Below, piece by piece: positions 10,273 through 11,781 of a DNA stretch of 28,428 nt. The notes beneath the pieces are model-generated. The model had not been told where the DNA came from. It searched no databases and saw nothing but the letters and a program-made list of their open reading frames with translations. The stretch is taken from positions 1-28,428 of the IMG/VR virus record IMGVR_UViG_3300041409_001217; one strand, 5' to 3'. The DNA is from a virus. Each line of letters starts with the position of its first letter. Position 1 is the first letter of the stretch. Position numbers and translations under genes: made by a program.

Positions 10273-10653
10273 TTAGGCGGGGGTGTTCTTCTTTCGAGGA
10301 ACGGGCTGGCGCCATTTGTCGAAGCTCTTGAAGCTCTCTTTGAACTCTTCAAGGCCTTCGGTGACGATGAGCTGTACCTTGCCGTCCTTGATCTCGGTCG
10401 TGACGGGTAGTTCGAACTCGGTAAGCTCTGCTTCAGCGATCTCGCGAACGCGATTGATGATGCGAAGCTTGATATCGTTTACCTTGGTGGTCTGCTCGGT
10501 CATCGCCTCCATCAGCTTTTCATGCTGCTTGGCGAGCGCTTCCATTTCAGTTGCGAGCTGGCGGCCTCCCTCTACGAGGCGACCCTTCTCCTCGACCATT
10601 GCCAGAAGCTCGGCGTCCTCTATGGGGATCTCGCGTTGATATTTATCGGCCAT
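10273..10653 (-). CDS. Coiled-coil phage protein, unknown function
   Basis: 126 residues. Residues ~10-80 are a strong coiled coil rich in Glu, Lys, Leu and Ala ('LATEMEALAKQHEKLMEAM'), followed by a short beta segment ('ELPVTTEIKDGKVQLIVTEG') and a basic end (PRKKNTPA). No enzymatic motif. The gene overlaps the 63-residue gene upstream by 11 bases, so the two are probably translated together. Position between capsid and connector genes suggests a small head or neck component. Confidence 0.55.
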   Translation of the reverse strand: MADKYQREIPIEDAELLAMVEEKGRLVEGGRQLATEMEALAKQHEKLMEAMTEQTTKVNDIKLRIINRVREIAEAELTEFELPVTTEIKDGKVQLIVTEGLEEFKESFKSFDKWRQPVPRKKNTPA

Positions 10654-10834
10654 ACACTTTTTTGAGGATGCTGCGGCTTGTCTCGCCGCTGGCGATTACG
10701 TTGCTAGGCTCGGTCTGAGGCTGCGGATTGTCAGTGTTGAAGGTCGGCTCGGCCGCGCTTATGGACGGATTGATGAGGACAGCTTCACGTTTGATGTTGC
10801 TGCCAAGGACTACTTTGATCGTTGATTTTGCCAT
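10643..10834 (-). CDS. Small phage protein, unknown function
   Basis: 63 residues. It begins with a basic beta-like segment (MAKSTIKVVLGSNIKR), has an acidic/Pro/Asn-rich centre, and ends in a basic 'SRSILKKVYGR'. It has the size and position of a minor head protein. It is the first gene after the interlocking stem structure that follows the capsid gene, and it overlaps the next gene by 11 bases. No Shine-Dalgarno is visible. Function unknown. Confidence 0.5.
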   Translation of the reverse strand: MAKSTIKVVLGSNIKREAVLINPSISAAEPTFNTDNPQPQTEPSNVIASGETSRSILKKVYGR

Positions 10835-10846
10835 GATGAGTTTATT

Positions 10847-10889
10847 GCCAGTTCATCTCGCCCCGCTGGAACTGGCGTCCGGGGGCGAG
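10847..10889 (-). promoter_or_regulatory. Interlocking double stem (pseudoknot or attenuator) after the capsid gene
   Basis: Read on the minus strand, CTCGCCCC (10889-10882) is complementary to GGGGCGAG (10864-10857), and GCCAGTTC (10876-10869) is complementary to GAACTGGC (10854-10847). Each stem is a perfect 8 bp. Their arms alternate 1-2-1'-2', which is the topology of an H-type pseudoknot or of two mutually exclusive hairpins. Connecting loops are 5, 4 and 2 bases. The element starts ten bases after the capsid TAG stop (10900-10902) and ends 12 bases before the next ATG. No T-run follows, so it is not a plain terminator. Confidence 0.65.
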
Positions 10890-10899
10890 AGAAACAAAC

Positions 10900-11781
10900 C
10901 TACACCGCCGAGACGATCTCGACGCCGCCTGCATCCCGGTTCTCGATCACCCCGTAAAGGATGTCGGCCGTGCTGAGCGTGCCAAGATATTCAGGAATGT
11001 AGTTGGACTGTAGGCGAACGCCCATTGCGTCTTTCTGGCCCGGAAGGGGAGAAGTGGCCCAATGGATCGAGTCGGGTACAGCCAGCGCACCTGAGTAGTC
11101 TGCGTTGGTGTTGATCTTTTGGATAAGTGTCGAGGTGACAACCGGGCGGCCGTAGATGCCGCCGATAGCGCCTTTGATGACCGGGTCGGCCCCGTCCGTA
11201 TTGAACTTGAGGGCGAAGCGGTCAATCGACATGAGGTCGGTCCACACCGTCTTCGGGTGTAAGAACCATGCGGCTTCCTCGAAGTCGGCATTTGCCGTCT
11301 CGAGGGCTGCGATGCAAGAGCGCACAACGGCGTCCGTGAGGGCGACCGTCGTGGTGCCCTTCGAAGTCGAGAAGCCATGGAACAAGGTCGCAATCGCGAC
11401 TTCAAGCTTTTTAGCCGCCGTAAAGGCCGCGTTCTTGATGTAACGCTGCTGCGTGTTGTAGGACTTCTTGACCTGAGCTGCCTCCTTGTCCTCGATCATG
11501 AACGAAACTTCGAACCACTGGTCTACAGTGAGGGTCTGCTTCGTTTCGGTCGGGGAGTTCAGCGTAACGGCGGTCGCGTTGGACTTGGCGTTTGCCGACA
11601 TCTCCGTGAGGTTCGGGGTGTAGAGAGCATCGGCTCCTTCGGCCAGTTCGTCGCTGCGGTTCGTGAAGAACGCAGCCATCTTGAGCTTGGCGCGATAGAA
11701 GTCGTTTATCTTTGATCCCCAAATCTCCGGGATGAGTTCAGCGAGGTCTGCCGCTGTGAATGTATCTGTAGGAAATGCCAT
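10900..11781 (-). CDS. Major capsid protein (HK97-fold type)
   Basis: 293 residues. The N-terminal 'AADLAELIPEIWGSKINDFYRAKLKMAAFFTNRSDE' pattern, the 'TLTVDQWFEVSFMIEDKEAAQ' beta segment, the helix 'YIKNAAFTAAKKLEVAIATL', and the C-terminal 'DAMGVRLQSNYIPEYLGTLSTADILYG' stretch follow the spine-helix and P-domain organisation of HK97-fold capsid proteins lacking a long N-terminal delta domain. The gene lies directly downstream of a scaffold-like gene, as expected. It ends in TAG and is followed by an unusual double-stem RNA element. No Shine-Dalgarno is visible before the ATG. Read-through of the TAG would add only 29 residues. Confidence 0.85.
   Translation of the reverse strand: MAFPTDTFTAADLAELIPEIWGSKINDFYRAKLKMAAFFTNRSDELAEGADALYTPNLTEMSANAKSNATAVTLNSPTETKQTLTVDQWFEVSFMIEDKEAAQVKKSYNTQQRYIKNAAFTAAKKLEVAIATLFHGFSTSKGTTTVALTDAVVRSCIAALETANADFEEAAWFLHPKTVWTDLMSIDRFALKFNTDGADPVIKGAIGGIYGRPVVTSTLIQKINTNADYSGALAVPDSIHWATSPLPGQKDAMGVRLQSNYIPEYLGTLSTADILYGVIENRDAGGVEIVSAV

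Follow-up and report, generated by a model that had tools for sequence, protein, structure and literature searches.

In phage T7, the sole terminator of the phage RNA polymerase sits after the major capsid gene (PMC6068830); this terminator, T-phi, follows gene 10A (PMC6068830, PMC5592923). The RNA element described here resembles T-phi in being a single element directly behind the major capsid gene that would limit the genes downstream, but T-phi ends transcription, whereas here a U-run is lacking and the relatives that bear a terminator are without the element. A phage pseudoknot operating at a start region is found in the gene 32 leader of T4 (PMC535899). That operator is likewise an mRNA pseudoknot tied to a start region; however, it lies at the 5' end, spans about 28 nt and is bound by gp32, while the present element consists of three long helices, is intercistronic and has no known protein partner. 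The element shares the A-B-A'-B' order of arms with H-type pseudoknots and differs from them in an outer clamp (P0), a junction (L3) of 0-1 nt and an apical sub-helix with a bulged A, so its stacking must differ from that of the coaxial H-type. The STAXI motif (PMC2864571) was also discovered as a pseudoknot by genome comparison, but that motif occurs in tandem copies close to genes for DNA handling, whereas the present element is single and stands beside capsid genes. No Rfam family matched at the gathering score, the only matches being sub-threshold ones to miRNAs, and a literature search, with most subscription papers outside its reach, found no description of the element.

The capsid gene boundary in the window

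The sequence studied, referred to as the window, is a 28,428-base IMG/VR virus record with the capsid gene and the element on the minus strand. The window capsid shows distant similarity to that of Pf-WMP3. The original prediction placed two perfect interlocked 8-bp stems after the capsid stop. Both stems are real and B has 8 bp, but A extends to 9 bp, and a third, outer helix, P0, had been overlooked. The helices follow the capsid stop in the order P0-A-B-A'-B'-P0':

10900-11781, minus strand: major capsid gene (phrog_267 major head protein, E 2e-17), stop codon TAG at 10902-10900
10893-10900, minus strand: 5' arm of P0, GGTTTGTT, beginning with the final G of the capsid stop TAG
10882-10890, minus strand: 5' arm of A, TCTCGCCCC, pairing with A' over 9 bp
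10877-10881, minus strand: L1, CGGAC
10869-10876, minus strand: 5' arm of B, GCCAGTTC, pairing with B' over 8 bp
10865-10868, minus strand: L2, CAGC
10856-10864, minus strand: 3' arm of A (A'), GGGGCGAGA
10855, minus strand: L3, a single U at the A'/B' junction
10847-10854, minus strand: 3' arm of B (B'), GAACTGGC
10839-10846, minus strand: 3' arm of P0 (P0'), AATAAACT, followed by CATC (4 nt) and then the next ATG
10643-10834, minus strand: downstream gene of 63 aa, with its ATG at 10834

On the minus strand, the dinucleotide TC separates the 5' arms of P0 and A, and the arms A-B-A'-B' have the 1-2-1'-2' order of a pseudoknot, as had been proposed. The window's own B' carries no clear Shine-Dalgarno (SD) stretch. 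The downstream gene belongs to the largest cluster of such genes, which accounts for 76 of 105 element-bearing relatives. When the 120 nt behind the stop were dinucleotide-shuffled 5000 times, an interlocked perfect 8-mer pair never arose; neither a second such pair elsewhere in the window nor further copies of the element elsewhere in the contig were found. A search for relatives of the window capsid in bacterial genomes found none. At one contig end (25146-28428, minus strand), a weak replication-relaxation ORF (PF13814) and TrwB/FtsK-like ORFs represent plasmid-like genes in this phage record.

Recurrence and covariation among related phages

Four capsid-profile searches for relatives yielded 275 gaps behind the capsid gene, 155 of them distinct. 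The refined scanner, on whose cut-offs all counts depend and which by design excludes A or B below 6 bp and P0 below 4 bp, assigned the element to 107 distinct gaps, an intrinsic terminator to 25, both to none and neither to 23. Several of these 23 are visible near-misses, and five show a reduced form. The reduced form (L100, L101, L103, L105 and L110) reads ATTGTTCC-hairpin-GGYTCGGAAATAATATG, i.e., P0 with a plain hairpin and without B, and is interspersed with full elements on the tree. Most relatives thus retain the arms, whose absence from homologous phages would have spoken against the original prediction.

The shuffle controls led to rejection of a chance origin: the three-helix motif had no hit in 2.28 Mb of shuffled sequence from the relatives, in addition to the 0/5000 in the window. 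Shuffled gaps reached the cut-off in 6 of 6420 cases, the best of them scoring 46.5, where the observed median was 55. With a strict scanner, both strands of every locus in the first set (1.52 Mb) yielded 49 hits; the capsid gap holds 40 of them, and most of the others are the same elements read on the opposite strand.

The architecture is kept while the sequence changes. The 107 elements have helices of 7.5 +/- 1.5 bp (P0), 9.6 +/- 1.7 bp (A) and 7.9 +/- 0.9 bp (B), and L3 is absent (0 nt) in 79 and a single nucleotide in 23. These elements are not independent, owing to the common ancestry of the relatives, yet nearly all of their arms differ, with 100 distinct arms for A, 86 for B and 72 for P0. 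Even L003, with a capsid 87% identical, has a largely different gap sequence and an identical architecture. The end of P0' falls between -4 and +6 nt of the next ATG in 81 of 107 elements, and the distance from the capsid stop to the element ranges from overlapping to more than 90 nt. In L015, an additional ORF lies between the capsid gene and the element. Where an insert splits the capsid gene, the element still sits behind the true capsid end. This insert (L055:6001-7619, also in L050) carries a LAGLIDADG ORF (Pfam PF00961) and interrupts the gene near residue 212, the L055 capsid resuming at ~7335; it had no Rfam intron match at the gathering score. L021 and L022 have identical capsids, but a replacement of about 8 nt across the P0 and A 5' arms breaks both helices; this difference is either a natural variant or an assembly error.

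In a structure-blind MAFFT alignment of 11 rows, picked for equal geometry and hence favouring clean counts, 99% of the base-pair cells pair, compared with 33-48% for slid partners, and 19 of 27 pairs are altered on both sides. Covariation is present in all four helices, P0, A, the inner 3-bp A2 and B; next to A2 lies a 3'-side bulge, mostly a single A. Two of the helices cross, and each is kept by compensatory change. The complementarity of the arms is a product of selection, as the covariation in the relatives' gaps attests. Among pairs flanked by Watson-Crick pairs, G-U exceeds A-C in P0 (41:6) and A (64:29), indicating a function on the mRNA strand, as sense-strand RNA, while B is almost purely Watson-Crick and gives no strand signal (G-U to A-C 8:6). 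The P0 core UUGUU/AACAA and the bulged A are partially conserved, no loop position exceeds ~65% identity in the 107 elements, and no nucleotide is invariant across the family. A self-cleaving ribozyme or riboswitch was rejected, as strongly conserved core nucleotides were not found. On these sequence comparisons, a conserved three-helix structure after the capsid gene is very likely.

A capsid-blind scan by sequence pattern detected the element in L383 behind a different major head protein, phrog_1357. Within that family, the element occurs in 10 of 34 distinct gaps and a plain GC hairpin in most others; one extra scanner hit, L437, looks spurious. Of the 12 elements located purely by sequence pattern, 11 lie immediately behind a capsid ORF from one of the two families or are separated from it by a single short ORF. 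A second pattern scan, in which some contigs repeat, gave six elements, five of them directly behind a phrog_1357-family capsid ORF; the ORF upstream of the sixth (L501) was not identified. The P0 core UUGUU/AACAA is common to both lineages, which hints at exchange or a common origin.

Candidate functions of the element

The gap behind the capsid gene may also hold a terminator, as annotated at the same place in the cultured relative Bacillus phage Page, and the capsid tree requires at least six changes of terminator state. The element itself was rejected as an intrinsic terminator, having no U-run and with 0 of 107 element gaps also scoring as terminators. Among 24 terminator-class gaps, 14 have a -10 box beginning 12-14 nt ahead of the next gene's ATG, a position that would yield a leaderless mRNA; a TATAAT box at this distance is seen in L142, L155, L161, L065 and other gaps of the class. 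In the element class, promoters before P0 show no excess over shuffles in a scan to which phage-polymerase promoters are invisible. SD-like tetramers precede the downstream ATG in 46 of 106 gaps with the element and in 0 of 24 with a terminator, compared with 10 of 104 capsid starts, and overlap B' in 78 of 90 cases; just 43% of the relatives with the element have such a stretch, and purines are generally abundant in the 3' arms. The genes behind the element fall into several clusters without detectable mutual similarity. Together, the variable downstream genes, the anchoring of P0' and the terminator/promoter pattern suggest that the element and a terminator plus promoter are alternatives for keeping downstream expression below that of the capsid.

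By comparison, P0, A and B emerge as conserved interlocked helices predicted where the capsid gene meets the next gene on the capsid mRNA. We give about an even chance to the proposal that they form a cis-acting intercistronic RNA that keeps the next gene's start region locked and its expression below that of the capsid. Hairpin A would present loop B, B' would pair with this loop, and P0 would clamp the fold into a closed pseudoknot. The closed knot would lock the downstream start region, with the spacer held in P0' and the SD-like stretch, which many relatives have, in B', and ribosomes on the polycistronic message would make far less downstream protein than capsid. The knot may additionally guard the capsid message at its 3' end. 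In relatives without the element, termination after the capsid gene and a restart from a promoter would give the same outcome. Of the roles raised in the original prediction, setting the ratio of capsid to downstream protein fits best.

Whether the helices could coexist was gauged with a rigid-helix model with phosphate linkers, a feasibility check and not a structure, in which P0, A and B close simultaneously at the window's lengths. Closure is lost with a rigid A of 11-12 bp and loops of 0-2 nt, and is restored by letting the top of A open or the bulged A act as a hinge. An incomplete run over the length of B, suggestive only, gave residuals of 2.2 at 8 bp and 9.1 at 9 bp. A true pseudoknot with all helices formed together is possible, since the coarse model admits the three at once. 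The classic coaxial H-type fold was rejected, as L3 is too short to cross stem 1. The original prediction suggested that alternating hairpins may be the better model. Two such hairpins could act as a switch timed by the ribosome or RNA polymerase, with A forming in the free RNA and B forming once a ribosome sits on the 5' arm of A. Such a switch would suit the short distance, ~15 nt or less, between capsid stop and P0 in about half the relatives and the choice of the A hairpin alone by RNAfold, which is unable to score the knot. We nevertheless consider it improbable: the A and B arms have no bases in common and compensatory changes keep both, the distance from stop to P0 reaches 90 nt and more, P0+B is predicted to be ~5 kcal/mol weaker than P0+A and is the weaker state in 92 of 107 elements, and simultaneous closure is sterically permitted in the model.

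Locking of the start region is the preferred mechanism, and protection or processing of the 3' end, which may act jointly with it, is the main rival. The knot would then chiefly protect or form the 3' end of the capsid message, by stopping 3'-5' exonucleases or by serving as a site of RNase processing, its proximity to the start being secondary. This reading accounts for much of the comparative pattern, as the same slot is occupied by terminators and, in most gaps of the second family, by plain GC hairpins, and the free sequence with kept structure resembles RNase III sites, where structure is kept while sequence varies. It is rather unlikely as the chief role, however, as P0' keeps its place relative to the next start codon and not to the capsid stop, and a simple hairpin would do for protection, yet B and P0 are retained. 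By analogy with the T4 gene 32 leader, a pseudoknot adjoining a phage start codon might instead be an operator through which a protein of phage or host origin keeps the next gene repressed, and the partial conservation of the P0 core and the bulged A would agree with this; with no invariant nucleotides in the family and mutually dissimilar clusters of downstream genes, such an operator is quite doubtful. The symmetry of the interlocked inverted repeats and the lack of strand preference in B would be expected of a DNA-level site for packaging, recombination or an origin, but the marked excess of G-U over A-C that P0 and A show on the mRNA strand and the constant orientation of the element relative to the capsid gene make this very unlikely. 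Least credible is a read-through signal extending the capsid protein, to which the UAG and downstream pseudoknot of the window had pointed. The predicted gain of 29 residues is correct for the window; among element-bearing relatives, however, the stops are UAA in 61, UAG in 44 and UGA in 2, the spacing varies, and the next in-frame stop lies within 10 codons in 72 of 107, so that neither a fixed leaky stop nor a fixed spacing is seen and the extension is mostly short.

Implications for capsid messages

A bolder proposal, which we regard as speculative and unlikely, is that this viral RNA splits one message in two. The clamped knot would block nucleases at the capsid 3' end and set or make the downstream 5' end near the AUG, replacing a terminator plus leaderless promoter in two capsid lineages. 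If true, the message-dividing knot would be a new class of viral RNA. The element represents an RNA family absent from Rfam, with strong covariation support and an association with the major capsid gene in many uncultured phages. As it swaps with terminators in evolution, it would offer a direct handle on coat-protein stoichiometry without transcription control.
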